The notes below the pieces were generated by a model that did no database searches, was not told the DNA's origin, and worked only from the letters and a program-made list of their open reading frames with translations. The position numbers and the translations under genes were made by a program. A stretch of DNA of 64,000 nucleotides from Rhodothermales bacterium (GTDB lineage Bacteria > Bacteroidota > Rhodothermia > Rhodothermales > Bin80), in assembly GCA_958296045.1 (NCBI GenBank), contig CATQHT010000002.1, forward strand, positions 682,001 through 746,000. The letters are read 5' to 3'. Each line of letters begins with the position of its first letter. Position 1 is the stretch's first letter. Of the stretch, positions 12,988 to 64,000 are shown in pieces.

Positions 12988-12995
12988 AGCAGACC

Positions 12996-14696: not shown

Positions 14697-14808
14697 CGAA
14701 AAAGAGGTTGATGAGGTAGCGGTCGTGTGATGCGCTGTGGGGGGATGTGCTGGGGCAGCCAGATAGCGCACGCTGGAACGCGGCCTAGAGCTGACGGTTT
14801 CTAACCAT

Positions 14809-15675: not shown

Positions 15676-15728
15676 ATGGAAGCTCCAGGGACGGATCCGC
15701 AACGTCAGAATCCATAGCATACTCCATT

Positions 15729-44483: not shown

Positions 44484-47336
44484 ATGAAGACGGGACAGAT
44501 TCTTTGCGCCGCCTTAGTGGCGGTATGTTTGTGGGCGCCACTGGCGGTAGCTCAGACGGTCGTCACCGGCGCGGTGACCGATGCTGAAACCGGCGAAATG
44601 CTTCCCGGGGTGAACGTGTCCGTAAAGGGCACGCTCCAAGGGACTGTGACCGCCGCAGATGGCTCCTTCACCTTGCGCCTGGAGTCCGACGAGGTGCACC
44701 TGGTATTCCGCTTTGTCGGCTATCGGACCCTCACCGTGCGCACGGGCGAGGGAATAGGCGTGCTTACCATCCGCCTGCGGGCCAGCACACTCGGCCTCAA
44801 TGAGATCGTCGTCGTGGGGACGCGCAGGCTTCCCCGGATGGTCAAGGACTCCGTGGTACCTGTGGACGTTATGGGACCCGAAGACTTGGCTGGCGCGCAA
44901 ACCACCGATCTGGACGATGTTCTGCGGACACATGTCCCTTCATACAATGTGCGGCGTAGCGGCGGTGATGAGGCGTCGCTGGTGCGGCCTGCCACGCTAA
45001 GGGGGCTGCCGACAGACAACGTCGTGGTCCTTCTTAACGGCAAACGGCGACACCGCTCGAGCTCCATCGCACTTAGCGGCAGCGCGCTCAACAAGGGGGC
45101 GCAGGGTCCTGACCTTAACACGATTCCCGCCATCGCGGTCAGGCAGGTCGAGATTCTGCGCGACGGTGCATCAGCGCAGTACGGTGCGGACGCTGTGGCC
45201 GGCGTGTTCAACCTGCAGCTGCGCGAATCGTCGCGCGGACTGATCGTCAACCTGCAGGGAGGGCAGTACACCCAAGGGGACGGGCGTTACGGTCGGATGG
45301 CCGCGAACCTGGGATTGCCGCTGACCACGCGCGGGTTTCTGAATCTGAGTCTGGAGGTGCGCGACCTAGATCAGGCTATACGCAGCGTTCAGCGCAGCGA
45401 TGCCGCAACCTTGGCACAGCGCGGGTACCCGGTCAATAATCCTGCCCAGCTATGGGGGCATCCCCAGGTGCGCAAAGCATGGACCGGATTTGCCAATGCG
45501 GGCCTGCAACTAGGAGGCAACATGAGTGCCTATGCGTTTGGCGGTTTTGCGCAGCGTACGCCCGAGACAGGATTCTATTTTCGGTCACCGGGCACGGCTT
45601 CGGCCCGCGGCAGCGTGTTCCGGTTCGGTACGGGCGATGCGGCTACGCGCGCGGTGATCGATCTGAATCCCGAAGACGATATCGTCTGCCAGGACCTCAA
45701 AGAGCTTCCAGGCCTGGATTCGGACATCAGCGCGGTGCAACAGTTCATCGGTGCCTATCAGGGGCGGTGCTTTCTGTTCAATGAGCTGTATCCGGGAGGA
45801 TTCACGCCCCGATTTGGCTCCGACATGAAGGATTGGAGCCTAGTTGCGGGGCTTAAAGGGGGATCGCAGTCTGGACTGCAGTGGGATGCCAGTATAAACG
45901 TGGGCTATAGCATCCAGGACTACTATCTCAACAACACGGTCAATGCGTCCTACGGACCCGAGACCCCGACCTCATTTCGGCCTCGCGGATATATCCAGCA
46001 GGAGACGGAAGCGGCGGTAGCGATGAGCTACCCGGTGACCGTCAGCGGCCTGGCTTCTCCTCTGCATTTGGCCTGGGGCGTGTCCTGGCGCGACGAGACT
46101 TTCGAAAGCCGGCCGGGCGACGAGGATTCCTACAAGCCGGGCCCGTACGCGGATCAGGGGTTCAGCGTGGGCTCGAACGGCTTTCAGGGCCTTAATCCGG
46201 CCTTTGCAGGCCGATGGAGTCGCCCCAACATGGCTGTATATGTGGATGCGGAAGCCGACATTGACGCGCGCTGGGTGATCGACGTGGCGGCGCGCTACGA
46301 GAATTACTATCAGGATTTCGGCAGTACGCTCACAGGCAAGGTGGGCGGGCTGTATCGGGCGACGGACCGGATCTCGTTCCGCGGGACGCTCAGCACGGGA
46401 TTCAGGGCTCCGACGCCGGGTCAGGCGAACCTTAACGTGTTTCAGACCACGGGATTTTCGCCACTAACGGGACTGATCGAGGTGGGGCAGTTGCCGTCTA
46501 CGCACCCTATTGCGCAGGGACTGGGCGGGAAGGCACTGACCGAAGAAAAGGCGCGCAGCCTTTCTTTGGGGCTGATTATGGAGCTCTCGGAGGATCTGAC
46601 GCTGACGCTGGACTATTTCGACATCGTTTTCAAGGACCGGATCGCCGTTACGGGCAACATCCCGATGACCGACGAGATGGTGGAGATTGTGGACAGGAAA
46701 GATCTTCTTGGAGGCGTCAGCAACATCAGAGAGATTCGTTTCTATTCCAATGACTTTGATACGTGGACTCGCGGGACGGATTTGGTCCTCGCCTGGGAGC
46801 GTGAGTGGGACCGTCGCGCGTTCTCCCGCGCAAGTCTCGCGTGGAACTGGACGCAGCTGGATCTGGTGGATTTTGCTCAGCCGCGCCAGATCCACGAGTT
46901 TTTGGGCTCGCCGCTCAAGCAGCCGGTTGAGCTCAGTCTGCTTACGACTGCACGGCAGACCGAGATGTTGACACTCAACCCCAAGCACCGCATGGTGTTG
47001 ATGGCGCAGCACCAGGTGGGTGCGCTCAGGGGCCAGATCCGCCTTAACTACTATTCATCGTTTCAGGTCTGCGCGTTTGGAAACTCGTCTTGCCGGCTCG
47101 AAAACGGCCAGAGCACGCTTGAAACGTATGGTAGTGCGATTATCGCTGCGGCAGAGCTCAGCATCGCGCTGCGTCAAGACTACCACGTGTCCGTAGGCGC
47201 CAACAACCTTTTTGATACCGTTCCAATCACCAGCGAGGCCGAAGCGCAGCGGATAGGGAATCGCCATCCTCGGACGCTGCCATGGGACCATAGCGGCCGG
47301 GCAGTCTACCTGAGGCTGTCGGCGGACATCTTCTAG
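44484..47336 (+). CDS. TonB-dependent outer-membrane receptor
   Basis: The ATG at 44484 (MKTGQILCAALVAVCLWAPL) starts a signal peptide ending AVAQ; 950 residues. A carboxypeptidase-regulatory-like domain follows (VVTGAVTDAETGEMLPGVNV), then a TonB-box-like LNEIVVVGTR near 112. The plug domain has LRGLPTDNVVVLLNGKRRHR and EILRDGASAQYGADAVAGVF. The beta barrel ends in an aromatic strand (AVYLRLSADIF). It should import a substrate across the outer membrane with TonB. It opens the plus-strand block that continues with SusC and SusD, after a 290-bp gap. Confidence 0.93.
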   Translation: MKTGQILCAALVAVCLWAPLAVAQTVVTGAVTDAETGEMLPGVNVSVKGTLQGTVTAADGSFTLRLESDEVHLVFRFVGYRTLTVRTGEGIGVLTIRLRASTLGLNEIVVVGTRRLPRMVKDSVVPVDVMGPEDLAGAQTTDLDDVLRTHVPSYNVRRSGGDEASLVRPATLRGLPTDNVVVLLNGKRRHRSSSIALSGSALNKGAQGPDLNTIPAIAVRQVEILRDGASAQYGADAVAGVFNLQLRESSRGLIVNLQGGQYTQGDGRYGRMAANLGLPLTTRGFLNLSLEVRDLDQAIRSVQRSDAATLAQRGYPVNNPAQLWGHPQVRKAWTGFANAGLQLGGNMSAYAFGGFAQRTPETGFYFRSPGTASARGSVFRFGTGDAATRAVIDLNPEDDIVCQDLKELPGLDSDISAVQQFIGAYQGRCFLFNELYPGGFTPRFGSDMKDWSLVAGLKGGSQSGLQWDASINVGYSIQDYYLNNTVNASYGPETPTSFRPRGYIQQETEAAVAMSYPVTVSGLASPLHLAWGVSWRDETFESRPGDEDSYKPGPYADQGFSVGSNGFQGLNPAFAGRWSRPNMAVYVDAEADIDARWVIDVAARYENYYQDFGSTLTGKVGGLYRATDRISFRGTLSTGFRAPTPGQANLNVFQTTGFSPLTGLIEVGQLPSTHPIAQGLGGKALTEEKARSLSLGLIMELSEDLTLTLDYFDIVFKDRIAVTGNIPMTDEMVEIVDRKDLLGGVSNIREIRFYSNDFDTWTRGTDLVLAWEREWDRRAFSRASLAWNWTQLDLVDFAQPRQIHEFLGSPLKQPVELSLLTTARQTEMLTLNPKHRMVLMAQHQVGALRGQIRLNYYSSFQVCAFGNSSCRLENGQSTLETYGSAIIAAAELSIALRQDYHVSVGANNLFDTVPITSEAEAQRIGNRHPRTLPWDHSGRAVYLRLSADIF

Positions 47337-47625
47337 TTGCTGCGCGAAAGAATTATTAACTAAGGCGCTTATAGGGTGCAACATCGGCCCACACGCTGCA
47401 GAGAGTGCTGCCTAGTGCGTATCTTGCCGTTTGTCGTGCAATGGGTATTGCAGAAACCTTAACGGTAATTCACTCGGCGTCGCGCCCCCTGCGGGCTGCA
47501 CCTGTGTGATCAGGAGCGATTGTGCTGATAATAGGCGCGTTGTGCTGCGCCGACGGGCGCGTTCGGGCCTTGTCGTTCTTCAAGCCTGTTGCACGCCTCT
47601 AGTTGTTTCACTCACCGCAAGACTT

Positions 47626-50600
47626 ATGAAACGCAAGCTTACGATGGCACTGGTGTGCCTGCTTCTTTTGCCGGGCTTGGCGCTCGCACAGGGAACCATC
47701 ATCTCTGGCAGCGTGACCGACGAGGATGGTGAAGCGCTTATTGGCGCGAATGTCATCATAGAGGGCCTGCTGATAGGTGCTTCTACCGACATTGACGGGA
47801 ACTATTCGTTCCAGGTTCCTGCCGCCAATACGGGGCAGACGGTGGAGCTGTCCGTGAAGTACATCGGTTACAGCCCCCAGTCGGCCACGATCACGCTGGC
47901 GGAAGGGCCGATGACCCAGGACTTCGTGCTAGCTCTAGACCGCATGAACCTAGATGAGGTTGTAGTCACCGGGGTTGCAGAAGAAACGCCGCGAAAAAAG
48001 TTGGCGTTCACGGTTTCCGAGGTCAGCCAGGAAGAACTGACGGTGGCCTCTGGGTCCAGCCCCATCTCCAACCTAGCAGGCAAGGTGGCGGGCGTTTCGG
48101 TGCAGGCTTCCAGCGGCACGCCAGGGGACGCGATTTCTGTGCGGCTGCGTGGTTCTACCAGCTTGACCGGAGGTAGCGCGCCGTTGTATATCGTCGACGG
48201 TGTGGTGCTGGGCGCCAATCAAGTTGACATCGATGCCCTGGACATTGAGAGCATGGAAATCGTCAAGGGGGCCGCAGCGTCATCTTTTTACGGTTCGCGT
48301 GCGCATAATGGCGTGATCAACATCACGACGCAGCGCGGCAGCAACATCCCGCTGAACCAGACGCGCGTGGTGATACGTAACGAGTACGGCGTCAACAGCC
48401 TTGGCGAGAATCTGGTTACCAACCGTTCGCACAACTATGCCACGGATGCCTCGGGCAACTTCCTCAATGCCGATGGTGAGAGGAACTCATGTGACAACTG
48501 CCTTCCCAACGGGTATGGTCCTGGCGCCGCACTGGCCAGGAATGCTCATGGGGAGTCTTTCTATCACACTCCGTACGCGGGACAGCTGTACGACGCCTTC
48601 GATACCTTCTTCGATCCTGGCGACTCGTACATCAACTATGTCGGTATCAGCCAGAACAGCTCCAAGACCAACTTCTTGGCCAGCTTCACGAATACGTCAG
48701 AGCAGGGAGCCATTCGGGGGCTTCAGGGCCTCAATCGGAAGAGCTTCCGTGTCAACCTTGACCATCGGGTCAGCCAGAGCCTGACGTTTTCCGCTTCCGG
48801 CTTCTACTCACAGTCGACTAACGATGCCGTGACCTCGAGTCTGGCATCCGATTCGGCCATCAATCCATTCTTCGGGTTGATGTTTACCAATCCATTGGTC
48901 AACCTTAACGCACGTGATGAGGCCGGAGAGCTCATGGTGCAGGCGGATCCGTTAGCGGTTGAGGAGAATCCGATCTATACGATCGAGAACGCGGACCTGG
49001 ACCAGGAACGCTCCCGCGTCTTGGGCAATTTCCGGGCGCGGTTCAGTCCGGTGGACTGGATGGATGTGCAAGGCAACTTCTCGTATGACCGTTCGGATCG
49101 TGATGAGAAGGAGTTTTATGACATCGGGTTCAAGACTATTGACGCGTCGGCGCTCAATGACGGCCGCGTCGAGCGCAGGAATGCCACTAGTGAAGCGCTC
49201 AACGCGGATGCGACCATCTCGCTGCGTCGTACTTTCGGACCGCTGGCTACGCGAATGCAGGTCAAAGCGCAGGTGGAGGATTTTCAGTCATTTAGCGAAT
49301 TCGTTATCGGTACGGACCTGACCACGCAGGGTATCTCCGACCTTTCCAATGTGGAGACCGAAGGCGAGAAGCTGATCGGCAACGGCGCCTCAACGGTGCG
49401 ATCAGAGGGCTATTATATGACCTTTGGCATTGACTATATGGACCGCTACATTGTGGACATCTTCGGGCGTCGTGACGGCAGTTCTCTCTTTGGTGCAGAG
49501 GAGCGTTGGCAGACGTATTACCGTGCCAGTGGCGCGTGGCGCGTATCCGAAGAAGACTTCTGGGGTCTCGACAATCCGCTGAGTGAATTCAAGCTACGTG
49601 CCTCGATTGGGACCGCAGGGGGTCGGCCGAGATTCGAGGCGCAGTATGAGACGCTGAGGCTCGCCAACGGCCAGTTGAGTAAAGCTACCCTCGGCAACAA
49701 GTTCTTAAAGCCTGAGCTTCAGACGGAGATCGAGTTCGGGATGGATCTGGGTTTCCGGGACCGCATCTTCTTGGAGCTGGTCTATGCGCAGACGACGGTT
49801 CAGGATCAACTGCTGGCGGTACCGTTGGCTGGTTACTTCGGATTCGGTTCGCAGTGGCGCAATGCTGGCGATCTGGCGACGAACACTATAGAGGCTACGC
49901 TGTCGGGCACGATCATTGACCAGTCGGACCTGCTGCTGGATATGAGCGTCACCTTCGACCGCACGCGGCAGGAAATCACCGCGTTTGACTCGAACCCTTT
50001 TCTGGGTGGCCCGCTTGACCTCTTCTTTATTCGCGACAACGAGCGGCTTGGCACCATGTACGGCAACCTGTTCATTACCGACATGTCCCAGCTACCGACG
50101 GGCGCGGAGGCCAGCCTCTTTGATATCAACGACGACGGTTATGTGGTGGCAGTAGGAAGCGGCAACTCGCACATGAGCGGCACGGGCTCCGACGGCATGG
50201 TAGGCACCGATGATGACCTGTGGGGTACCTCTGTGGATGTGGGGGGCACCTCCTACCGCTGGGGAATCCCGATTAAGTACTACGATGAGACGGAAGAGAC
50301 GGCGATCGTTCGCATTGCCGATGCGGTACCCGACTTCAACATTGGCGTGAACACGACGCTCAACTATAAGGGCATAAGCCTCTACATGTTGTGGGGTGCC
50401 CAGGTAGGAGGCGATGTATACAACTTCACCAAGCAGTGGAGCTATCGCGACGGTCGTGCGGCGGATCAGGATCAAGGAGGCAAAGCGGAAGGGCTCAAGA
50501 AGTCCATTACCTATTACGAAGTGCTGTATGATGCGACGGCCCGCAATAGTCACTTCGTTGAAGATGCCACCTACATCAAGCTGCGTGAATTATCGATCGG

Positions 50601-50829
50601 ATACACGTTCAATCGTCGTCAGCTCCAGAGTGTATTTGGCAACTCGTTGCACTCGATCGGCATCAGCCTGATCGGACGCAACTTGATTACGATCACGGAT
50701 TACTCGGGCTTTGATCCAGAGGTGGGCAGTGCTGCGGAGGAGTTCGGCGATGCCACACTTGGGCGCGTAGACAACTTCAATTACCCGCCCTACCGCACGT
50801 ACCGCGCGAAACTTGAGATACAGTTTTAA
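47626..50829 (+). CDS. SusC/RagA-type TonB-linked outer-membrane transporter
   Basis: I use the ATG at 47626 (MKRKLTMALVCLLLLPGLAL), which begins a signal peptide ending ALAQ; 1067 residues. The regulatory-like domain (ISGSVTDEDGEALIGANV) is followed by the TonB box LDEVVVTG and a plug with VRLRGSTSLTGGSAPLYIVDG, the SusC signature region. The barrel ends YRAKLEIQF. SusC channels pair with a SusD lid to import glycans or peptides. The susD gene follows after 41 bp. A long in-frame extension upstream lacks signal-peptide character and was not used. Confidence 0.95.
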   Translation: MKRKLTMALVCLLLLPGLALAQGTIISGSVTDEDGEALIGANVIIEGLLIGASTDIDGNYSFQVPAANTGQTVELSVKYIGYSPQSATITLAEGPMTQDFVLALDRMNLDEVVVTGVAEETPRKKLAFTVSEVSQEELTVASGSSPISNLAGKVAGVSVQASSGTPGDAISVRLRGSTSLTGGSAPLYIVDGVVLGANQVDIDALDIESMEIVKGAAASSFYGSRAHNGVINITTQRGSNIPLNQTRVVIRNEYGVNSLGENLVTNRSHNYATDASGNFLNADGERNSCDNCLPNGYGPGAALARNAHGESFYHTPYAGQLYDAFDTFFDPGDSYINYVGISQNSSKTNFLASFTNTSEQGAIRGLQGLNRKSFRVNLDHRVSQSLTFSASGFYSQSTNDAVTSSLASDSAINPFFGLMFTNPLVNLNARDEAGELMVQADPLAVEENPIYTIENADLDQERSRVLGNFRARFSPVDWMDVQGNFSYDRSDRDEKEFYDIGFKTIDASALNDGRVERRNATSEALNADATISLRRTFGPLATRMQVKAQVEDFQSFSEFVIGTDLTTQGISDLSNVETEGEKLIGNGASTVRSEGYYMTFGIDYMDRYIVDIFGRRDGSSLFGAEERWQTYYRASGAWRVSEEDFWGLDNPLSEFKLRASIGTAGGRPRFEAQYETLRLANGQLSKATLGNKFLKPELQTEIEFGMDLGFRDRIFLELVYAQTTVQDQLLAVPLAGYFGFGSQWRNAGDLATNTIEATLSGTIIDQSDLLLDMSVTFDRTRQEITAFDSNPFLGGPLDLFFIRDNERLGTMYGNLFITDMSQLPTGAEASLFDINDDGYVVAVGSGNSHMSGTGSDGMVGTDDDLWGTSVDVGGTSYRWGIPIKYYDETEETAIVRIADAVPDFNIGVNTTLNYKGISLYMLWGAQVGGDVYNFTKQWSYRDGRAADQDQGGKAEGLKKSITYYEVLYDATARNSHFVEDATYIKLRELSIGYTFNRRQLQSVFGNSLHSIGISLIGRNLITITDYSGFDPEVGSAAEEFGDATLGRVDNFNYPPYRTYRAKLEIQF

Positions 50830-50870
50830 CGCGTAGGCTCCCTACCACTAGAATGTACGAGGTGCAAATC

Positions 50871-52490
50871 ATGAAACAGACTTTCGTTACCGGTTTGGCG
50901 TGCCTCCTCCTATTGGGAGGTTGCCAGGACTTGGCGGTGGAAAACCCGAACAACCCTGACCGCGCGGTGGCCTTTGCGCAGCCGGGTGATGTGGTAAACC
51001 TTATCAAGGGAACGTTCCAGGATTACTGGCTGGGATTGCAGAATTGCAGTAGTGGCGCGATGTTTTATTCCACGATAGCCGACGAGAATTCCTCCTCATG
51101 GGCCAACTGGGGTATGCGGGATATGTCCTCCGAGCCGCGCATTGCTTGGGACAACAGTCCGACGTACAATCGGCGTAGCTCCACGCAAGAGCCGTGGTTT
51201 GACGCGTATCGGGGCATTTCCAACGCGAATGACGCGTTGCAGGCGATCGCTCGCGCAGAGTCGGAAGGTGGCCCGTCGAACAACGTCTTCACGCGGGAAG
51301 GCTACGACACCAACCTGTTGAAGGCCTTTGCCAAGATGAGTCAAGGCCTTATGCACGGCACCTTGGCGCTGATTTTCGACCAGGCTTTTGTGGTCGATGA
51401 GACCGTGGATTTGGAGAACGACCAGATTGACTTCCGTACCTATGGTGAGGTGGCCATGGAGGCTGTTAGGATGCTGGATGAGGCAAGAGCCATCGCGTCG
51501 GCCAACTCGTTTTCCATCTCGGCTGCGGATGACTGGATCTGGGGCCTTGATGTAGACTCAGACCGCATGGTTCGTCTGATCAACTCCTTTGCGGCGCGCA
51601 TTATGGTACAGTCCGCACGGAATCCAGAAGAGCGGGCCGCGGTCAACTGGCAGGAGGTCCTGTCGCGTGTTAATAGCGGCATCACCGAGGACTTTGCACC
51701 TATCGGCGACGATGACGGCACCGTGGAGTGGGATTGTCTCAAGTTTTATGGGCAGAACGGAACCACATGGAGCCGTGCCGACTATCGGACCATTGGGCCA
51801 GCGGACGAGTCTGGTGGGTATGCGGATTGGCTTTCAAAGCCGCTGATTGATCGATTGGTGTTCGACATTGAGACTTCGGACCGCCGCATTGTCGGTAGCG
51901 CGAGTGATGTCACGGTGGACGGCTCCGACTTCGAGTATCAGGGCACCAACGGACCGTTCCCTGCTGCACGTGGGACGTATCACTACTCCTCACACAACCA
52001 CAAGCGTTACCAGTACTATTACAATGGCAATGCCAACGGCCCCATGCCGCATATGATTATGACCGAGATGGACATGTACAAGGCCGAAGCACTGCTACGG
52101 ACCGGCGGCAGCAGCGACGAGGTGGCGATGCTGATCAACAAGACACGTGTCAGCCGGGGGATGCTTAATCCCGCTATGGGAAGTGACTCCAGGGGCTCGC
52201 CTTCGGATGATCAAAGCCACATGGATTCTGCCAGTCTCTGGGCTAAGGTCAAGCATGAGCGCAGGATAGAGACATTTCAGACTGCCACAGGGTTAGCCTA
52301 CTTTGATGATCGAGGTATGGGAGATCTTGTGCAGGGTACGCCGATTCATTTCCCGGTACCTGGCAGGGAGCTGGAGACGCTGGGTATGGCCATCTACACC
52401 TTCGGTGGCGTGGGAGGCACGGGAGGTGCTCCTACGGCATTCCGTGATGATGGCGTGGATGATCCGGTGCCAACCTTCTTCAGGCGGTAA
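50871..52490 (+). CDS. SusD/RagB-type surface lipoprotein
   Basis: The ATG at 50871 is preceded by GAGGTG; 539 residues. The lipobox is LLLLGGCQD (Cys about 18), followed by DLAVENPNNP, as in SusD-like proteins that lie on the cell surface. Helical repeat regions (YRGISNANDALQAIA, LLKAFAKMSQGLMHGTLALI) form the SusD fold. The C-terminal KHERRIETFQTATGLAYFDDRG segment matches the family. It should capture the ligand and close over the SusC channel. Its substrate is unknown; no linked enzyme indicates a glycan. A possible terminator follows 39 bp downstream. Confidence 0.93.
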   Translation: MKQTFVTGLACLLLLGGCQDLAVENPNNPDRAVAFAQPGDVVNLIKGTFQDYWLGLQNCSSGAMFYSTIADENSSSWANWGMRDMSSEPRIAWDNSPTYNRRSSTQEPWFDAYRGISNANDALQAIARAESEGGPSNNVFTREGYDTNLLKAFAKMSQGLMHGTLALIFDQAFVVDETVDLENDQIDFRTYGEVAMEAVRMLDEARAIASANSFSISAADDWIWGLDVDSDRMVRLINSFAARIMVQSARNPEERAAVNWQEVLSRVNSGITEDFAPIGDDDGTVEWDCLKFYGQNGTTWSRADYRTIGPADESGGYADWLSKPLIDRLVFDIETSDRRIVGSASDVTVDGSDFEYQGTNGPFPAARGTYHYSSHNHKRYQYYYNGNANGPMPHMIMTEMDMYKAEALLRTGGSSDEVAMLINKTRVSRGMLNPAMGSDSRGSPSDDQSHMDSASLWAKVKHERRIETFQTATGLAYFDDRGMGDLVQGTPIHFPVPGRELETLGMAIYTFGGVGGTGGAPTAFRDDGVDDPVPTFFRR

Positions 52491-52528
52491 CAAGGCCGTC
52501 TTCGCAAGAAAGAGAGTAGTGCGTCAGG

Positions 52529-52561
52529 AGGCCAGTGCCGCCAGGGTGCTGGCCTTCTGTT
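52529..52561 (+). terminator. Possible intrinsic terminator after the SusD gene
   Basis: A 7-bp stem (AGGCCAG at 52529-52535 and CTGGCCT at 52549-52555) with a 13-base loop, followed by TCTGTT. The T-run is short, so it may only attenuate. Confidence 0.4.
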
Positions 52562-52595
52562 GCACTGTACAACATGCAATCCTTGGATGGGAACT

Positions 52596-53090
52596 ATGCG
52601 ATTTCTTTCAGGACTGATGATTGCTGCGTGGCTGGTGACCGGTTGTTCCGGCTCGGGTGCCAGCGCAGACGGCGGTGAAAATGTCAGAAACACGATGCGG
52701 GCGAGCCTGGGAACGTCGACGGCGAGCCACATCGTCAGCGCCTCAGAGGATGCGCTGCTTAACCGTTACGGTTACCAGTTTGAGCGGCGCGTCGAGACTA
52801 CCGAAGATGTACGCCTGGAGACGTCTTGGAAGGAGCTGCCGGCTACGAGCGACGAGAAGGCATTGGGATTCGGGTTCGCGCGCATCAGGATCACGGTTCG
52901 GGCTCGACCTCGGGACAGGGCGGCCGGCACGTTTTCGGCGACGCTAAACGCGTGGGTAGAAGGTAGCGGCCCAGCCAGCGACATATGGGTGCGGATCCCG
53001 GTGACGGACGAGCGCGAGGCGTACTTAAAGGAGGTGATTGACTTTTTGGAGAACGAGTTCAAGGGTGGCGTCCGTCGGGGCACTCCCTGA
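52596..53090 (+). CDS. Small lipoprotein of unknown function
   Basis: The ATG at 52596 (MRFLSGLMIAAWLVTGCSGS) gives 164 residues with a lipobox VTGCS (Cys 17). The mature part contains NRYGYQFERRVETTEDVRLE and ALGFGFARIRITVRARPRD, a mixed alpha/beta pattern of about 100 residues, and a C-terminal helix (EREAYLKEVIDFLENEFKG). I recognise no family. It lies between the SusCD pair and the first CRTAC1-type gene on the same strand, which suggests a shared process but proves nothing. Confidence 0.8.
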   Translation: MRFLSGLMIAAWLVTGCSGSGASADGGENVRNTMRASLGTSTASHIVSASEDALLNRYGYQFERRVETTEDVRLETSWKELPATSDEKALGFGFARIRITVRARPRDRAAGTFSATLNAWVEGSGPASDIWVRIPVTDEREAYLKEVIDFLENEFKGGVRRGTP

Positions 53091-53560
53091 TGTTGATCGG
53101 TTCTGATGGGCCGGCTGACTGTTGTGCGCTGTGGCAGCCAGTCGTGCGTGCATGCAGCGTGGCGCCGCATTACGCGGATTCTATGGTTCGCGTATAGCGG
53201 TCTGACTACAACGCGGTCGGCAGCGTTGGCTGGCGAAGCTCGGCTGTAGCTACGAAAGTCGTCTTGAGGTTTGTAGATGTGGTCGTTAGACATGGTCAGC
53301 CGGAGCTGGGCTGGAGCAGTCCTTATTAGTGGCCGCACATACCTGGTGCGTAATTGCCGGCCGGCGAGCAACGGGTCCCAGTGGCCACAACAGGCGCAGG
53401 TTGATGGTCAGGGCCAGAAGCGGTGCGCCTTGCCGCTTCTGCCGCGGGTGCACAGGCCTGCTCACGGGCTCTAGTAGCGCGTGCTATCCCACCTGGTGGC
53501 GTGTCCGATCCCGCAGCGACTGATTACCTACCTTGTGCGCGGACGGATGGACGCACCGCA
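53091..53560 (+). other. Gap before the CRTAC1-type genes
   Basis: About 470 bp. The frame of the following gene is open through the last part of it (from 53423), but translation there lacks protein-like features. No promoter, repeat or RNA gene is recognisable. It presumably holds the promoter of the three CRTAC1-type genes. Confidence 0.4.
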
Positions 53561-56500: not shown

Positions 56501-57256
56501 CACGCAATACCACCGATTGTAGGCCGTGTGCGCTCCTACCACGAGTTTGCAGAGCTGAACGTTACGGAGCTTTTTGGCGAGGTGCTGGGCGCTATGGAAA
56601 GGCATGAAGCCCACACGCTAACCAGTATGGTGTTCCTGAACCGTGGCGACACGTTTGAGGGTTCCCCACTGCCGCTTGCCGCGCAGCGGACGCCGGCATT
56701 TGCAGCCGCGGTGGCGGACTATGACGGTGATGGCAACGAAGATCTCTTCCTCAGTCAGAACTTCTTCGCGGTGCCTGAAACACAGCCCAGGATGGATGCC
56801 GGACGTGGGTTGATGCTGCTCGGCGACGGACATGGTAGCTTTGAGCCGATGTCTGCGGCAGCGGCCGGGATAGCGGTTTTTGGAGAGCAGCGGGCAGCGG
56901 CTGTAGGGGACTTCGATCGCGATGGCCGTGCCGACTTGGTGGTGACGCAGAACGGCTCACCGCCCGTGCTGCACATGAATCAGGGAGAGCGGCCCGGCAT
57001 CCTTGTCACGCTGAAAGATCCTTTTGGTGGCATAGGAGCCGTGATGCGGCTCCGCTATGCCGATGGCACCGCCGGCCCTGCGCGCATCGTGGCGGCCGGA
57101 TCAGGCTACTGGACGCAGCATGCGCTGGAGCAGGTGCTGGGCGCCGCTGGAACGCCCGTGGCGCTTTGGGTGCGCTGGCCTGGCGGCGTGGTCACCGAGT
57201 CGCCCCTGGCACCGGACCAGTCCGCGGTCGTGTCCTTTGGGCCCAATGACCGGTAG
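53561..57256 (+). CDS. CRTAC1-type FG-GAP/ASPIC-UnbV lipoprotein, double module (first copy)
   Basis: With the in-frame GTG at 53561 the protein has 1231 residues and a lipobox LVLLAACS (Cys 36); no ATG is available, so the start is uncertain. The mature part holds 14 DxDGDGxxD-type motifs: seven (from GDVDGDGWSD to ADLDGDGDLD), an ASPIC/UnbV domain (GLYLSSSDPLRSFAV, VTVHWPSGQESV), then DFARQPLLPRRLS, seven more (from TDADGDGEDD to GDFDRDGRAD) and a second ASPIC domain (RIVAAGSGYWTQ). Each set of seven should fold as an integrin-like calcium-binding propeller. It is a paralogue of the next gene and overlaps it by 11 bp. The family is widespread beside SusCD pairs but has no known function that I can name. 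Confidence 0.9.
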   Translation: MEGRKHRTGHRSIRASTGFRCGARTWAACLVLLAACSTPPEYDQAWIEGDGYRKQALRPPMGRGEGFTEMRAARTRVDFNNTLPDSLWLRNRHLVNGSGVALGDVDGDGWSDIFLASMAGLNALYINHGNWTFGEVSDHATTEAEARTSGAVMADMDGDDDLDLILTSLGGGITAFENEGKRSFIDITHQAGLWRPGGATSMALADVDGDNDLDLYVGYYKAQTVKDLYPPERLAFERVVRAVGDTYAIDPEFASHYRLVRQGNRLMRLEVAEPDHFFLNDGEGRFEEVNPLGGAFRGEDGQPLRETPRDWALSVRFQDLSGDRIPDLYVCNDFESPDRFWIGDGKGGFDAAPATAVRKTSQSTMSVAAGDANGDGHVDLFLADMLSMHYVQRQRQHLAIPPEVVTIGDLAARPQVMQNMLLVADGDGTFAEVAYMAGVAQTGWTWSSAFLDVNLDGHQDLLLTTGHVYDAMDSDAQMQSGRPGGDWRTKLRLFPGLDLPNVAFRGRGDGTFVLMPDGWGLGWSPDVSHGMAFADLDGDGDLDAVINRLNGPAGLFRNDATAPRLAVRLRGTAPNTRAVGARIVVTGDGLPTRQAEVIAGGLYLSSSDPLRSFAVRERATVTVHWPSGQESVIRDAEAGYLYELREGESWPVAPPDSIITPRALMRPVTLPLVHYEAPYQDFARQPLLPRRLSQRGPALAITDADGDGEDDIVMGAGRGGRLAFVKNPGGATVRIEHLGPLASGDHAGVVAAGDGRLVVAVSNYERGPVDAEEAAMLQVMTLDAPDGTQTITLGAATPGPLVLADFDADGSLDLLVGGHFVPGRYPEPASSQILRGYSDTFVADPALSQPLKDVGLVSGAVAGDLDGDGDSDLALAVEWGPVKVFLNDGRGLLTDRTEALGLGAYIGWWNGVALGDFDGDGRLDMVATNWGTNTSYAGSGRPLVAYYGDLDRNGTVDILEARFDAGLSEYGMVRDLRVLSHAIPPIVGRVRSYHEFAELNVTELFGEVLGAMERHEAHTLTSMVFLNRGDTFEGSPLPLAAQRTPAFAAAVADYDGDGNEDLFLSQNFFAVPETQPRMDAGRGLMLLGDGHGSFEPMSAAAAGIAVFGEQRAAAVGDFDRDGRADLVVTQNGSPPVLHMNQGERPGILVTLKDPFGGIGAVMRLRYADGTAGPARIVAAGSGYWTQHALEQVLGAAGTPVALWVRWPGGVVTESPLAPDQSAVVSFGPNDR

Positions 57257-60200
57257 CGCCGCGCTTCGGTTTGTAGCGGCGCTGGCCGGGGTGTGCTTCA
57301 TGGCGGCATGTGGGGCTGAGCTGGGTGAATGGCAATCGGAAGACGAGGTGCGGTGGCGCACACTCGCGTCGCCGTCTGGAAGAAGCGCGGGATTCAGGCA
57401 GGTGGCGCCTGCCCGTACGGGGGTTACCGCGGGCAACTACGTGTCAGGGTCGCAGATTACGGCCAACCGCCACGTCATGCACGGCTCGGGTGTGGCTATT
57501 GGCGACGTCGATGGGGATGGGCGGCCAGACATAGCGCTGGCGCGCCTTTTTGACGACAACGTGTTGTATCGCAACGATGGCCACTGGCGCTTTACGGATG
57601 TTACGCGCGAAGCCGGGATAGCGCTGCCAGGCCGCCAGTCCACAGGCGTCGCACTGGCCGACCTGGATGGCGACGGGGACCTGGACATGCTGGTCACCAC
57701 GCTTTCTGGACCAGGGGCCGTGCTGCGCAACAATGGTATGGGACGATTTGCCGATGTCACCAATGCCTCTGGTCTGGCGCTGGGATCGGGTGCGACCACG
57801 ATGGCACTAGCGGACATCGATGGCGATCACGACCTGGATCTCTACGTCGCCCGCTACAAACGTATAGCACTGGCGGATAGCCTTCCAGCAAGCGCCATCA
57901 GCTGGGAAGAGATCCTGGTGGACTCCACGTACAAGGTTCGGGCCGCGTTTGAAGATCATTACCGGTTTCGGCGGTACGGCGACAAGGTGGTGCGCCTGGA
58001 ACTGGCAGAGCCCGACGCACTGTACCTCAACGATGGTACAGGGGTCTTTGAACCGGCAGACTGGACCGGCCAGTCTTTTGTAGATGCGCACGGCCAGCCG
58101 CTGGAGGCGGCGCCCAGGGACTGGGCGCTCACGGCCCGCTTTCACGACATCAACGGCGACGGCTTTGCAGACCTGTATGTATGCAACGACTTTGAAAGCG
58201 AGGACGCGCTATGGTTCGGTGATGGCACAGGCACAATGAAGCTGGCCGCGCCACATGTGCTGCGCAAAACCAGCAACGCCACCATGTCCGTGGACTTTTC
58301 CGACATAGACAGGGATGGCCATATGGACATCTTTCTGACGGATATGCTAAGCCGTGACTATGCTCGACGCCAGCGCCAGCGCAATACGCGCATCCCGTTG
58401 CCGGTGCGCGCTGGAGACCTGGACGCGCGCCCGCAGGAAATGCAGAACATGCTCTTTCTTAACCGGGGTGATGCCACCTTCGCGGAGGTGGCCCGCCTAG
58501 CGGGCGTGGCTGCGTCAGACTGGTCCTGGGCTACGAGCTTTCTTGACGTTGACCTTGACGGTTACGAAGACCTATTGATCACTACGGGCCATGTGTTTGA
58601 TATCCAGGACCTGGATGCGCAGGCCAATGAGCAGGAGCGCCTGCGGCGCGCTGTTAATATGCGTACGGCTCGCGCGCTGATTCTGGACTTTCCGCCATTG
58701 GCGCTTACCAACGTGGCCTTTCGCAATAGGGGTGACCGCACGTTTACTCCGGTGCCTAACGGTTGGGGCCTGGGCAAGGAGGCGGACGTCTCGCATGGAA
58801 TGGCACTGGGAGACCTCGATGGCGATGGCGATTTGGATGTCGTCATCAACCGCCTGAACGCCGCTGCGGGCTTGTATGAGAACCGGGCACCTGGCCGTCG
58901 CATTGCGGTGCGCATCAAAGGGCCTGGGCGCAACACATATGGCGTGGGTACCACCGTGCACGTCTATTGCGAGGGATTGGCTGCGCAGCAGAAGGAGATC
59001 ACCGCTGGAGGCCAGTATGTATCACACAGCCAGATGGTGGCGGTGTTTGCGGCGACCGAAGACAGCTGTAGCCTCGAGGTCGCCTGGCCAGGCGGCAAGC
59101 GATCGAGCGTGGCGTCCGTCTTGGCAGGTCGACTCTATGAGGTATCGTACGAAGGTGCCGTAGCATTGCCCGCGCTGGTGGATGCGACGGGGGCTACCGA
59201 TGCCGTCTTTGTATCGACCCAGGTGCTGCCGCCCGTAACCGAGACACTCTACCATGACTTTGCTCGGCAGCCCCTGCTGCCGCGTCGATTGAGCCGCCGC
59301 GGTCCTGCAGCCGCTGCGGCCGACCTGGACGGCGACGGGGACCCCGATTTGGTGCTGGGAGCCGGCATGGGCGGGCGCCTGACAGCATGGTACAACAGAG
59401 GCGGAAGGTTGCACAGAGCCTATGCATCGGCCCCTGTATCTGGGGATGTGACCGGGATCGTGGTGCTGCCGGATTCGGTGGGCACTGCCCGCATCCTGGC
59501 GGGTATCGCCAACTACGAGCGCACCCCAGACACCACTGGAGACTCGTCATATGTGCTGGAGCTTGCGGCCTCCACAGCGCGCAGGATTCCCTTCGGCCTT
59601 GATGCACCCGGTCCTATGGCGCTGGCGGACATGGATGGCGACGGGGATCTAGACCTCTTCGTGGGCGGTTCCTTCAGGCCGGGTGCATATCCGCTAGCGG
59701 CTACAAGTCGTATCTACCGCAACACGGCGGGGAGACTGGAACCCGACGACGCATGGAGCCGGCCGTTTTATGGCCTGGGCATGACGTCTGGAGTGGCGCT
59801 TGGCGACCTGGACGGCGACAGCGATGCCGATGTCGTGCTGGCCCAGGATTGGGGGCCGCTAAGGGTGATGATGAGCGAAGGCGGCACGTTTGTGGACCGA
59901 ACGCAGGCATTGGGGCTGGCGCAGCATACCGGCTGGTGGCGCGGCGTAGCGATGGGGGATTTTGACGAGGATGGCCGGCTGGACCTCGTCGCCACGAATT
60001 GGGGATGGAACCATGTGGCGCACGAGGCTATGCCGGTGCGTCTGTATTATGGTGATATCGACGCTAACGGGATGATGGACCTTTTTGAGGCGTTGTGGGA
60101 GCCGTCGCTGGACGCCTACGTGCCTGCCCGGCAGCTGGGTGATTTGGCGTCGGGCGTGCCGGCGCTGCGGCGCCGGTTCGCTTCCCATGCTGCCTTTGCC

Positions 60201-60914
60201 TCCTTACCGCTGGCACAGGTGCTCCAAGGCGCGTGGAGCTCGTTGCACTACGTGGAAGCGACCACTTTGAGCTCTACCGCGTGGCTTAATCGGGGCAGCC
60301 ACTTTGAGGTGCGCTCGCTGCCACAAGAGGCCCAGCAGACCGTGGCTTCCGGCGTCGTAGTCGTGGATATCGATGCGGACGGTCACGAGGATCTGGTGCT
60401 GGCGCAGAACTACTTTGCTTTGCCTTTATCCACGTCGCGTCACGACGCAGGTCGCGGGCTCTGGCTTCGAGGGGACGGCCATGGTGGCTTCATCTCCATG
60501 GGCCGGTCAGGCCTAGCCGCCTATGGTGAGCAGCGTGCGGCGGTCACGGCGGACTGGGATCAGGATGGACGCAGCGACCTTCTAATAACGCAGCACGGGG
60601 CCGCGCCGGTGGTGCTTAGCAACGTGTCATCGCGAAGTGGTCTGCGCGTTCGCCTGGAGGGCCCTGCGGACAACCCCTGGGGTATTGGCGCCACCGTCAG
60701 GATCATTTATGCCGACAGCAGCCGGGGACCGGCGCGCCTAGTGACGGCAGGCTCTGGATACTGGTCGCAGCAAGCACCGGTGCTCGTGCTGGGCCGGCGT
60801 TGGGGCGTAGAGGCGGCAGGGGCAGCGGTACGCTGGTCTGACGGCGCAACGTCGCTGGTGCCAGTGGTACCAGATGCACTTGAGGTGACCGTCCAGCGCA
60901 GCGAAGCAAAGTGA
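57246..60914 (+). CDS. CRTAC1-type FG-GAP/ASPIC-UnbV lipoprotein, double module (second copy)
   Basis: The ATG at 57246 lies inside the end of the previous gene (11-bp overlap). It gives 1222 residues with a lipobox CFMAACGA (Cys 22). The layout equals the first copy: seven motifs (GDVDGDGRPD to GDLDGDGDLD), ASPIC domain (GGQYVSHSQMVAVFA, LEVAWPGGKRSS), DFARQPLLPRRLS, seven motifs (ADLDGDGDPD to ADWDQDGRSD), ASPIC domain (LVTAGSGYWSQQ). Identical blocks such as DLYVCNDFES and DFARQPLLPRRLS show a tandem duplication. Longer upstream frames lie in the previous gene and were not used. Expected location: outer membrane, probably facing out. Confidence 0.92.
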   Translation: MTGSAALRFVAALAGVCFMAACGAELGEWQSEDEVRWRTLASPSGRSAGFRQVAPARTGVTAGNYVSGSQITANRHVMHGSGVAIGDVDGDGRPDIALARLFDDNVLYRNDGHWRFTDVTREAGIALPGRQSTGVALADLDGDGDLDMLVTTLSGPGAVLRNNGMGRFADVTNASGLALGSGATTMALADIDGDHDLDLYVARYKRIALADSLPASAISWEEILVDSTYKVRAAFEDHYRFRRYGDKVVRLELAEPDALYLNDGTGVFEPADWTGQSFVDAHGQPLEAAPRDWALTARFHDINGDGFADLYVCNDFESEDALWFGDGTGTMKLAAPHVLRKTSNATMSVDFSDIDRDGHMDIFLTDMLSRDYARRQRQRNTRIPLPVRAGDLDARPQEMQNMLFLNRGDATFAEVARLAGVAASDWSWATSFLDVDLDGYEDLLITTGHVFDIQDLDAQANEQERLRRAVNMRTARALILDFPPLALTNVAFRNRGDRTFTPVPNGWGLGKEADVSHGMALGDLDGDGDLDVVINRLNAAAGLYENRAPGRRIAVRIKGPGRNTYGVGTTVHVYCEGLAAQQKEITAGGQYVSHSQMVAVFAATEDSCSLEVAWPGGKRSSVASVLAGRLYEVSYEGAVALPALVDATGATDAVFVSTQVLPPVTETLYHDFARQPLLPRRLSRRGPAAAAADLDGDGDPDLVLGAGMGGRLTAWYNRGGRLHRAYASAPVSGDVTGIVVLPDSVGTARILAGIANYERTPDTTGDSSYVLELAASTARRIPFGLDAPGPMALADMDGDGDLDLFVGGSFRPGAYPLAATSRIYRNTAGRLEPDDAWSRPFYGLGMTSGVALGDLDGDSDADVVLAQDWGPLRVMMSEGGTFVDRTQALGLAQHTGWWRGVAMGDFDEDGRLDLVATNWGWNHVAHEAMPVRLYYGDIDANGMMDLFEALWEPSLDAYVPARQLGDLASGVPALRRRFASHAAFASLPLAQVLQGAWSSLHYVEATTLSSTAWLNRGSHFEVRSLPQEAQQTVASGVVVVDIDADGHEDLVLAQNYFALPLSTSRHDAGRGLWLRGDGHGGFISMGRSGLAAYGEQRAAVTADWDQDGRSDLLITQHGAAPVVLSNVSSRSGLRVRLEGPADNPWGIGATVRIIYADSSRGPARLVTAGSGYWSQQAPVLVLGRRWGVEAAGAAVRWSDGATSLVPVVPDALEVTVQRSEAK

Positions 60915-63046
60915 CTGCGCTACGTTCCATGTTCTGGCCCGGGGTGTTGGTGGCCCTGCTTCTGGCGCCGGGATGCGCTGTGCCGCAGAGCCACGGCACC
61001 CGCGAGATGGCCCAAGTGCTAGAAGCGATCGCCCTCGAGACCGACCGGTATCCTCGCAGCAATGCGCACGCCAACAAGGCGCGCGTGCGCGCGCTGCGCG
61101 CGGTCCAGCCTCCGTCCGACCCGGAGGAGCATGTCCAATACGCAAGCCTGCTGGGCCAGGAGCTGCTGCGCGCCGGCGATAGCGAAGCCGCCATCGCACA
61201 ATTTGAATCAATACTGCGCGACATCGAGGCAGCACCTGACGTGTTTGATGCCTCTTACCTGCTCGGAGCCCAAGACTACCTGGCGCTCAGCTACCTGCGA
61301 CTGGGAGAGCAAGATAATTGTGTCGCCAACCCCAATGCTCAGCGGTGCCTGTTGCCCATTACCGCAGAAGGTGTGCACACGCTCAAGCGCGGATCCAGGG
61401 CCGCCATGGGCCTCTACCAGGAGCTGCTCACAGCAGATGCGGACGACTTGACGAGCCTGTGGCTTCTAAACTTGGCCGCCATGACGCTGGGCATCTATCC
61501 CGACAGCGTACCAGCCCAGTGGCGCGTCCCGCCCCAGGCACTGGAAGCCGAAGACGACGTGGGCAGGTTTGTGGACATCGCACCCCTATCTGGCGTGGAT
61601 GTGATGGGGCTCTCTGGCGGCGTCGTGATGGAAGACCTTACCGGTGATGGCGCGCTGGACATCCTGGCATCCTCCTGGGGGCTGCGCGACCCGCTGCGCT
61701 TCTTTGTCAACCTGGGCCAGGGCACCTTCGAGGATCGGAGCGCACACGCGGGCCTTGACGGGCTCACCGGAGGGCTTAACATGGTCCATGCGGACTACGA
61801 CAATGATGGCGATGCAGACGTGCTGGTGCTGCGAGGTGCCTGGCTGGCCCAAGGCCATCCCAACTCGCTGCTCCGAAACCGCGGCGACGGCACCTTCGAG
61901 GATGTAACAGTGCAGGCTGGATTGTACACGCTCCGCCCTACGCAGACGGCCGTATGGACCGACCTCGACCTTGACGGGGATCTGGACCTCTTCATTGGCA
62001 ACGAATCCAACCCCCAAGCCGGGTGGCACGACTGCGAATACTATCGCAACCTCGGCGACGGCACCTTTGAAGAGGCGGCAAGGGAGATGGGGCTCGCGGT
62101 GACTGGGTATGTTAAAGCTGTAATCAGCGGGGACTATAACAACGACGGATGGCCGGATCTGTACGTGTCGCGCTATGGAGATCCCAACCTGCTCCTGCAC
62201 AACGTGGGCGGCGTGGCGTTTGAAGAGGTAGCGGCTGTGGCCGGGGTGCAAGAACCGATCGACAGCTTTCCGGCATGGTTTTGGGATGTGGATAACGATG
62301 GGTGGCAGGACCTGTTTGTGTCTGGATGGCGGGCAAGTGCGGCAGATGTGGCGGCCGAATACCTAGGGCACGAGCGCGAGGACGCCAGGGCCAAGCTGTA
62401 CCGCAACAACCAGGACGGCACCTTTACCGATGTGGCGGGTGCGTTCAGGCTGGACCGAGTGATTTTTGCGATGGGCTCGAACTTCGGGGACCTGGATAAC
62501 GACGGCTGGCTCGATTTCTATGTCGGCACGGGGGATCCGAACCTGAGGGCGCTGATACCTAATCGGATGTTCCGCAATGACGCTGGTAAGCGGTTTGTGG
62601 AGGTTACCACCTCTGGGGGCTTCGGACATCTGCAGAAGGGCCATGGCGTCGCGTTTGGCGACATCGATGGCGATGGCGACCAGGACGTGTACGCAGTGAT
62701 GGGCGGTGCCTTCGAGGGAGACCTCGCCATGAACGTGCTCTTTGAGAATCCTGGCCACGGCAACGAGTGGGTAACGCTCGAGCTGGTAGGTACCCAGAGC
62801 AACCGGAGCGCTATCGGCGCGCGCATCCGTGTGGATGTGGTGACCGAAGATGGCCGGCGTTCTATCCATCGTACCGTCTCCGCAGGCGGCAGCTTTGGCG
62901 CCTCCAGCCTTTGGCAGGAGGTGGGGCTTGGGCAGGCGACAGCCATCGAAGCCCTCGAGGTCTACTGGCCCGCGCTGGGTAGCGTGCAGCGCCTAGAACG
63001 CGTATCCATGAGGCAGAAAGTGCGCATCGTGGAAGAGGAGCGCTAG
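60911..63046 (+). CDS. CRTAC1-type lipoprotein, single module with helical N-terminal domain
   Basis: The GTG at 60911 overlaps the previous stop (GTGA). It gives 711 residues with a lipobox LLLAPGCA (Cys 22). Residues about 30-200 are helical with TPR-like pattern (EHVQYASLLGQELLRAGDSEAAIAQFES). Then come seven Asp-rich motifs (EDLTGDGALD, ADYDNDGDAD, TDLDLDGDLD, GDYNNDGWPD, WDVDNDGWQD, GDLDNDGWLD, GDIDGDGDQD) and one ASPIC/UnbV domain (SAGGSFGASSLWQEVGLG, LEVYWPALGSVQ). It is a more distant relative of the two double-module proteins. The coupled translation suggests the three products are needed together. Confidence 0.92.
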   Translation: MTALRSMFWPGVLVALLLAPGCAVPQSHGTREMAQVLEAIALETDRYPRSNAHANKARVRALRAVQPPSDPEEHVQYASLLGQELLRAGDSEAAIAQFESILRDIEAAPDVFDASYLLGAQDYLALSYLRLGEQDNCVANPNAQRCLLPITAEGVHTLKRGSRAAMGLYQELLTADADDLTSLWLLNLAAMTLGIYPDSVPAQWRVPPQALEAEDDVGRFVDIAPLSGVDVMGLSGGVVMEDLTGDGALDILASSWGLRDPLRFFVNLGQGTFEDRSAHAGLDGLTGGLNMVHADYDNDGDADVLVLRGAWLAQGHPNSLLRNRGDGTFEDVTVQAGLYTLRPTQTAVWTDLDLDGDLDLFIGNESNPQAGWHDCEYYRNLGDGTFEEAAREMGLAVTGYVKAVISGDYNNDGWPDLYVSRYGDPNLLLHNVGGVAFEEVAAVAGVQEPIDSFPAWFWDVDNDGWQDLFVSGWRASAADVAAEYLGHEREDARAKLYRNNQDGTFTDVAGAFRLDRVIFAMGSNFGDLDNDGWLDFYVGTGDPNLRALIPNRMFRNDAGKRFVEVTTSGGFGHLQKGHGVAFGDIDGDGDQDVYAVMGGAFEGDLAMNVLFENPGHGNEWVTLELVGTQSNRSAIGARIRVDVVTEDGRRSIHRTVSAGGSFGASSLWQEVGLGQATAIEALEVYWPALGSVQRLERVSMRQKVRIVEEER

Positions 63047-63165
63047 ATGTGCCCAGAGGCGTGGCGTCCCTGGGCTGCGCAGCCCTGCGCGAAACACCAA
63101 GCACAGCCAACAGTCCTAGGTAGTTCTATCGCATTCCTACACCAATTCCCGTTTTTATTTTCGTC

Positions 63166-64000
63166 GTGATCAAGCGATCCTGCCTGCTGCTGTTGCTGAG
63201 CTCCGTTGGCACCTCCCTTACCTACGGACAGGTGGTTAGCGGCCGGGTGCTGGCAGCGCTTTCGGATTCGGCACTCGCGGGTGCCTCCGTCACGCTGGAG
63301 CGGCATGGCATCGTGGCTCACGGAGCAGCGGCCGACAGCGCAGGCCGCTACTCATTGGTGGTGACGCGCGCTGGTACGTACCGGATCGTGGCTCGCCATG
63401 TAGGCTTTGGGACAAGCGCAGCCGCTATCCATGTCGGGGAGGATCCGGTCACGTATGACTTTAGACTGACGCCAGTGGCCATCGGTATGGAGGAGATCGA
63501 GATCCATGCCGAGCGTTGGCAGCTCGCTTACGATGTCGGCGTGGCTACCAGCCGGGTATCGGCGCGCGATGTGCAGGCGCTCGCCGGGGCAGGCGAGGAT
63601 GTGCTGCAGGCGCTGCGGGTTTTCCCTGGGGTGCAGACGTCAGGTGACTACTCGACGCAGCTCTATATCCGCGGCGGCACTCCAGATCAGAACCTCATCG
63701 TGATTGACGACATCGAGGTATTCAGCCCATACCAGCTCAGCGGCATGGGCAGCCTGCTGAATCCAGAGCTGGTGCGCGAAGTCGAGCTCTATCCGGGCAC
63801 GATGCCCGCCGAGTACGGGGACCGCCTGTCGTCCGCACTGGTGGTAACAACGCGCGAAGGGCGCACCGATGGCGCGCTGCACGGTCGCCTCAACACCACG
63901 ATGATGACGGTGAACGCTACGCTCGAAGGTGCTACTGGCTTTTGGGATGGAAGTTGGATTGCTAGCGGGCGCAAAACGTATTTCGGGTCGTTTGCAAACA
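63166..64000 (+). CDS. TonB-dependent receptor, N-terminal part (leaves the window)
   Basis: A GTG at 63166 starts a signal peptide (CLLLLLSSVGTSLTYGQ). A carboxypeptidase-regulatory-like domain (VVSGRVLAALSDSALAGASV), a linker with MEEIEIHAERW and a plug domain (LRVFPGVQTSGDY, LYIRGGTPDQNLIVIDDIEV, VELYPGTMPAEYGDRLSSAL) follow. The frame is open to the window edge (278 codons). It lies 119 bp after the third CRTAC1-type gene, so it may belong to the same transcription unit and serve the same substrate. Its plug is of the same RGG-PDQNL subclass as the receptor at 1-741. Confidence 0.9.
   Translation, partial: MIKRSCLLLLLSSVGTSLTYGQVVSGRVLAALSDSALAGASVTLERHGIVAHGAAADSAGRYSLVVTRAGTYRIVARHVGFGTSAAAIHVGEDPVTYDFRLTPVAIGMEEIEIHAERWQLAYDVGVATSRVSARDVQALAGAGEDVLQALRVFPGVQTSGDYSTQLYIRGGTPDQNLIVIDDIEVFSPYQLSGMGSLLNPELVREVELYPGTMPAEYGDRLSSALVVTTREGRTDGALHGRLNTTMMTVNATLEGATGFWDGSWIASGRKTYFGSFAN

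Follow-up and report, generated by a model that had tools for sequence, protein, structure and literature searches.

CRTAC1-type lipoproteins encoded with a SusC-SusD importer in a Rhodothermales bacterium

Genes of the locus and their products

The window analysed here is a stretch of 64,000 nucleotides from a Rhodothermales bacterium (assembly GCA_958296045.1, contig CATQHT010000002.1, positions 682,001 to 746,000). It ends in a locus with genes for a SusC-type transporter, a SusD-type lipoprotein, a small lipoprotein (LIP) and three CRTAC1-type proteins (CR1, CR2 and CR3), flanked by two TonB-dependent receptors (TBDR1 and TBDR2; Table 1). As shown by gene calls and by Pfam and NCBIfam searches, all these gene types, named in an original prediction made from the sequence alone, are present and lie on the plus strand. 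The limits of 44484 and 64000 given in that prediction were too narrow; TBDR2 runs past the end of the window and is followed there by a gene for a GWxTD-domain protein.

Table 1. Features of the locus, numbered from the first nucleotide of the window
Feature	Position	Strand	Evidence and remarks
TBDR1, TonB-dependent receptor with CarboxypepD_reg-like N-terminal domain	44484..47336	+	Pfam TonB_dep_Rec_b-barrel, Plug, CarbopepD_reg_2; adjacent, not core
SusC/RagA-type transporter, core	47626..50829	+	TIGR04056 529 bits (cut-off 368); likely start ATG 47626; orthologues in relatives
SusD-type lipoprotein lid, core	50853..52490	+	Lipobox LGGC, Cys codon at 50922; SusD-like_3 and orthologue profile
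LIP, small lipoprotein, core	52560..53090	+	Lipobox VTGC; likely start ATG 52587 or 52596
CR1, double-module CRTAC1-type lipoprotein	53423..57256	+	FG-GAP_3 1e-72, ASPIC 7.5e-13; start uncertain; lipobox Cys codon at 53666
CR2, double-module CRTAC1-type lipoprotein	57246..60914	+	FG-GAP_3 1.8e-78, ASPIC 3.1e-12; lipobox Cys codon at 57309
CR3, helical/TPR-like N-terminus and one CRTAC1 module	60911..63046	+	FG-GAP_3 4.3e-43, ASPIC 6.3e-9; GTG start
TBDR2, second TonB-dependent receptor	63166..64000 in window, to 65817 in genome	+	Plug, CarboxypepD_reg; adjacent, not core
GWxTD-domain protein, conserved last gene	65833-67707 (L009:5833-7707), outside window		TIGR04514 34.5 bits, cut-off 28

The transporter has a CarboxypepD_reg-like domain, a plug and a barrel, and its TIGR04056 score identifies it as a SusC. 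The closest solved sequence to the single protein was RagA (6sli), and a profile of its orthologues placed the SusC homologue 8aa4 first, with RagA behind. The SusD gene follows directly, 24 nt downstream. As a single sequence its product was weak in Pfam (SusD-like_3, 22.6 bits, under the cut-off of 27), but a profile of 31 orthologues matched solved SusDs at 1e-11, the top matches in the PDB being 5lx8 and 5t3r, which we take to be glycan-type SusDs. LIP had no match in Pfam or NCBIfam and its single-sequence structure model reached a predicted local distance difference test (pLDDT) of 45; its orthologues sit after SusD across the phylum. Clear lipoboxes were found on SusD, LIP, CR1 and CR2, and a related LAPGC site was seen by eye on CR3. 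The CR2 start (ATG 57246) overlaps the CR1 stop, and the GTG start of CR3 overlaps the CR2 stop by 4 nt; overlaps of a few bases are packing as in an operon. Terminator-like matches at the locus were no more frequent than in shuffled sequence, and promoter-like matches (11 versus 5.2, standard deviation 2.3) were not used as evidence.

CR1 and CR2 carry FG-GAP repeats throughout together with ASPIC domains. The double modules of the original prediction were thus confirmed for these two proteins and not for CR3, in which a helical N-terminus of about 220 residues, weakly TPR-like (TPR_16 only 0.015), precedes a single module. Motifs of the form Dx[DN]xDG number 10 in CR1, 11 in CR2 and 6 in CR3. 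An AlphaFold model of mature CR2, made with 52 aligned sequences, showed tandem propellers (pLDDT 91.6, predicted template modelling score 0.93). Residues 22-612 matched murine CRTAC1 (9etn) with a Z score of 38.6 and a root mean square deviation of 2.4 over 452 residues. Pfam and the fold match together give the arrangement that defines the CRTAC1 family, an FG-GAP/VCBS propeller followed by ASPIC. The second half of CR2 is modelled as another propeller; its fold matches are many and of similar strength, including LGI1 at Z 30.9 and aldos-2-ulose dehydratase at Z 27.8, and they would not discriminate among propeller functions. In a profile comparison with the PDB, CRTAC1 was the sole strong relative, and integrin alpha chains matched weakly.

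No catalytic Pfam or NCBIfam family was detected among the locus genes of the window, as originally predicted, or in the GWxTD gene. Linked CAZymes or other degradative enzymes, which mark a polysaccharide utilization locus, were thus not found at this locus. The CRTAC1-type proteins might instead be enzymes of an unrecognised class, for instance lyases or dehydratases whose propellers contain metal sites, and the locus a normal degradative system. Some propellers are enzymes, the dehydratase lies among the matches of the second module, and long motifs are conserved across phyla. However, many unrelated propellers match at least as well, conservation falls mainly on the Dx[DN]xDG aspartates and on glycines with a structural role, and the only strong sequence match is the solved CRTAC1 structure. 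A catalytic role was accordingly rejected both by fold and by sequence, no catalytic family having appeared in Pfam, NCBIfam or PDB profile comparisons, and we regard the enzyme explanation as quite improbable.

Conservation of the gene order

The conserved unit is SusC-SusD-LIP-CR1-CR2-CR3-GWxTD. This order, without the receptors, was found on six intact contigs (L097, L098, L099, L108, L109 and L111), the last from a family other than that of the window; in L099 the short LIP gene was not called. Genes of the relatives were called by a simple open reading frame picker, and contig ends cut some loci. TBDR1 and TBDR2 were found only in the window genome and in genus g3 (L095, L096). In genus g6, among others, no TBDR1 gene precedes SusC, and TBDR2 is absent from the orthologous loci of genus g6 and genome G043. 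Both flanking receptors were therefore rejected as members of the unit, contrary to the original prediction, since they are missing from most orthologous loci. The same MurB and Band7 genes precede the locus in the window genome and several relatives.

Strong homologues of the GWxTD protein lay within 5 kb of an ASPIC domain in 15 of 16 cases in nine genomes of the family (0.4 expected), and in two types of locus the gene accompanies CRTAC1. Within the family of the window, the intact orthologous loci showed no enzyme gene. In L111 a lipoprotein of the M14 zinc carboxypeptidase type is encoded between LIP and CR1, the only orthologous operon with M14. In L104 (genome G005) CR1 is separated from CR2 by a block of genes on the minus strand (11912-15694), one of which reads like an IS110-type transposase; CR2, CR3 and GWxTD follow beyond it.

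The window genome has 13 ASPIC matches and three full SusC genes. A second locus (C3:316-336 kb) combines SusC-SusD with a GWxTD gene and double CRTAC1. A third type, CRTAC1-lipoprotein-CRTAC1-CRTAC1 near SusC-SusD, was found in relatives (L116-L118); in the window genome its parts lie 47 kb apart. Of the 16 SusC genes in five genomes from the family, 13 lay within 10 kb of an ASPIC domain, with 0.72 expected (p 1.6e-15, computed under uniform placement). The family also has at least one other SusC type (G009:C62) with no CRTAC1 nearby.

Among 80 named CRTAC1 loci, which are the best matches to this query and not a random sample, SusD occurred within the examined stretch in 41 of the 56 assigned to the Bacteroidota group (assigned by record title, one Ignavibacteria locus included). 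SusD was present in 31 of 67 CRTAC1 operons, typically in the order SusC-SusD-CRTAC1(x1-3), and stood directly before CRTAC1 in 31 of 68 Bacteroidota runs. Both Gemmatimonadota loci contained SusCD, and one of them, L017, repeats SusC-SusD-CR-CR3 and includes an orthologue of CR3. The gene order proposed for checking in the original prediction is thus recurrent across genera, families and phyla, above chance. An accidental neighbourhood, in which unrelated surface-protein genes share an operon or island and no joint function, could be imagined because CRTAC1 proteins and SusCD each occur without the other. The order kept over families and phyla and the strong enrichment over chance make this very improbable.

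Several partner genes recur in these loci. A PAP2-family protein was found in 18 of the 56 Bacteroidota-group loci, often at the end of SusC-SusD-CRTAC1 operons. The arrangement SusC-SusD-CRTAC1-CRTAC1-PAP2, present in the cultured Dokdonia pacifica (L066) and Algoriphagus aquimarinus (L057), was also seen in two families that belong to the same taxonomic order as the window (L128, L132). The haloperoxidase motif KX6RP was present in 16 of 16 PAP2 proteins tested and P-x-Y/H-x-SGH in 14 of 16. The single PAP2 match in the window genome lies near none of its CRTAC1 loci. Other Bacteroidota loci contain LacI, GyrI-like, GH65, GH30 or alpha-amylase genes, and sugar transporters too. With these enzymes and M14 in relatives, freedom from enzymes, which the original prediction had taken as the defining property, describes the window locus and is not universal in the association of SusCD with CRTAC1.

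The linked enzymes bear on a narrower form of the importer model, in which the system would be a RagAB-like importer of peptides or protein fragments and the CRTAC1-type proteins would bind proteinaceous material. RagA is the solved sequence closest to the window SusC, M14 carboxypeptidase occurs in L111, and a gene beside the Gemmatimonadota locus L015 reads by eye as an M14-type carboxypeptidase. On the other hand, the SusC orthologue profile puts 8aa4 before RagA, the SusD profile matches 5lx8/5t3r best, the M14 gene is confined to one orthologous operon, and the commoner linked enzymes in Bacteroidota are PAP2-type proteins and glycoside hydrolases. We consider this narrower form unlikely.

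Two trees, each including one stray non-CRTAC1 row (L111_2473 or L075_1) that stood out by its long branch, gave the same split. CR1 and CR2 grouped with proteins of Gemmatimonadota and of SusCD-less Verrucomicrobiota, and a long, fully supported branch parted this lineage from the Bacteroidota-type CRTAC1s, among which the other copies of the window genome fell. SusCD coupling therefore exists in two distant CRTAC1 lineages, which indicates that it was retained, or arose, on more than one occasion.

Orthologues or relatives of the window SusD were found in 45 of 395 genomes of the phylum. Many loci had SusC-SusD or SusC-SusD-LIP alone (for example L112, L139, L142-L144, L146, L147 and L161), one family had SusC-SusD-GWxTD (L135, L136), and in L145 SusC-SusD-LIP is convergent with CR-CR-CR3. 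The extra genes near SusCD orthologues that lack CRTAC1 looked by eye like unrelated housekeeping genes. The core is SusC-SusD, to which LIP is mostly joined and CRTAC1 and GWxTD are often added.

Some further features were observed. PAP2/vanadium-haloperoxidase-like genes are exemplified by L037:13213-14547, L066 and L090. A second family of small lipoproteins, c4 (about 195 aa, no Pfam match), was found in 12 loci between CRTAC1 genes or after SusD (L041:529-1122, L047, L062, L080 and others); homology of LIP to c4 was rejected, as no match was found in profile comparison. A different CRTAC1 locus (L011, G000:C1:24-40 kb) encodes a SusC-like receptor, a 773-aa protein outside known families, a PorP/SprF-like protein, three single-module CRTAC1s, two TPR proteins and an alpha/beta hydrolase. 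Its gene order is conserved in G002, and this type also occurs in L126 and L102 and in parts in L125 and L130. Another CRTAC1 cluster (L010, G000:C3:742-757 kb) is flanked by genes for a redoxin, a sodium:solute symporter and a PIG-L deacetylase-like protein. Elsewhere in the window, the open reading frames 22955-25267 and 30767-31105 have similar N-termini (MFEQNQILRTL and MFTQSQVLRTL) and are possibly full-length and truncated copies of one mobile-element gene.

A candidate role in ligand capture

We lean, by analogy with known complexes, towards a SusCD importer in which the CRTAC1-type surface lipoproteins would serve as non-catalytic capture subunits, in the manner of utilisomes or of BtuG. 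The conserved order in several genera and another family, the overlapping or abutting CR1/CR2 and CR2/CR3 frames, the proximity of SusC to ASPIC domains far above chance and the position of SusD directly before CRTAC1 in many Bacteroidota runs all favour this reading. It is favoured further by SusCD coupling in two deeply separated CRTAC1 lineages, by uptake and catabolism genes (LacI, sugar transporters, glycoside hydrolases) in the operons of relatives, by the high-confidence propeller model with its CRTAC1 fold match, and by the precedents of SusCD-assembled lipoproteins and of capture by BtuG. In such a system the lipoproteins would be exported to the cell surface, where they may sit on or beside SusCD, and the CRTAC1 propellers would load many Ca2+ ions for rigidity. 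The substrate, either by itself or on a carrier protein, could bind to the broad faces of these propellers and be passed to the SusD lid, and TonB energy would drive import through SusC. The window operon itself would contribute no degradation; cutting would be done by enzymes encoded elsewhere or by other organisms, and in relatives by locus-borne enzymes. LIP and GWxTD may be accessory or assembly factors. A glycan or a peptide is the likeliest ligand. Peptides are suggested by the similarity to RagA and by the M14 gene, glycans by the LacI and glycoside hydrolase genes found in relatives, and the data favour neither over the other.

Several points weigh against the capture role. SusCD was found in none of the 19 Verrucomicrobiota CRTAC1 loci, and the presence of the CR1/CR2 lineage there indicates that these proteins have a function of their own. 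Such unlinking in relatives had been named beforehand as a ground for giving up the original prediction; it applies to Verrucomicrobiota and not to most Bacteroidota-group loci. The SusCD-LIP units that lack CRTAC1 indicate that the transporter does not need the CRTAC1 proteins. The analysis revealed no known ligand site and no carbohydrate-binding module, and surface location, calcium load and complex formation are predictions from sequence.

It may be that the CRTAC1-type proteins are adhesion or scaffold proteins, calcium propellers similar to integrin alpha, which anchor the cell to particles, to matrix or to other cells, and that SusCD only profits from its place at the contact site and receives no substrate from them. 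Apart from CRTAC1, the PDB entries that match best in sequence are integrin alpha propellers, the folds nearest to module 2 are protein-binding propellers such as LGI1, and the Verrucomicrobiota proteins occur without any transporter. The propeller fold alone does not discriminate, however, and the ordered operons with a fixed place right after SusD are more easily explained by a subunit of the transporter than by a free adhesin, so that adhesion appears doubtful.

A bolder extension of the capture role is that SusC-SusD-CRTAC1 loci with GWxTD or haloperoxidase-like partners form a widespread, undescribed class of uptake machine, in which tandem calcium propellers would act as ligand catchers for a substrate class new for SusCD, such as oxidised, halogenated or protein-bound matter. 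We offer this tentatively and consider it rather unlikely.

Comparison with known systems

No literature linking CRTAC1, ASPIC or VCBS proteins to SusCD was found; the search covered open-access papers only, so this is not proof. In the same literature no mention of GWxTD was found, nor any report of a link of PAP2/haloperoxidase-like genes to SusC-SusD-CRTAC1 operons. The pairing of SusCD with CRTAC1, with GWxTD or PAP2 partners, appears undescribed and would be the new part. To this extent the novelty suggested in the original prediction appears to hold; an importer free of linked enzymes is not new, as RagAB and the SusCDE complex of Flavobacterium johnsoniae show. CRTAC1/ASPIC proteins are common in bacteria and their mammalian relative is poorly understood. 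The link to SusCD gives them a testable function, surface ligand capture, in a genetic setting that extends to cultured Bacteroidota (Dokdonia, Algoriphagus, Pontibacter), and it ties two little-characterised groups, the GWxTD-domain and the haloperoxidase-like PAP2 proteins, to SusCD loci.

In the levan and dextran utilisomes of Bacteroides thetaiotaomicron, extra lipoproteins assemble on SusCD (PMC7618045). The likeness lies in the SusC barrel, the SusD lid and further surface lipoproteins from the same locus. Utilisomes have as partners a glycoside hydrolase and a surface protein that binds glycans; the locus described here has no hydrolase and instead encodes LIP, GWxTD and tandem CRTAC1 propellers. 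Its lipoproteins, which carry lipoboxes, may likewise assemble on SusCD. RagAB of Porphyromonas gingivalis imports peptides cut by gingipains (PMC11817032). It is likewise a SusC/SusD-type importer whose degrading enzymes act apart, and RagA is the closest solved sequence to the window SusC, but no CRTAC1 partners have been described for it. The F. johnsoniae complex (Fjoh_0403-0405), which is abundant and of unknown function, adds to SusCD an unrelated surface lipoprotein as its third member (PMC12611786). Its three-part layout is comparable to SusC-SusD-LIP, although no CRTAC1 genes were reported.

Murine CRTAC1 (9etn) shares with module 1 of CR2 the fold of a calcium-motif propeller with ASPIC; CR1 and CR2 differ from it in their two tandem modules and bacterial lipoprotein signals. 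The propeller lipoprotein BtuG caps the TonB-dependent transporter BtuB and captures B12 without an enzyme (PMC10404256). Both systems pair a beta-propeller lipoprotein with a TonB-dependent transporter, and it is by this analogy that a capture role is proposed here. BtuG is one seven-bladed propeller on the smaller BtuB barrel, whereas CR1 and CR2 are double modules with ASPIC, encoded beside a SusC with its own SusD lid.

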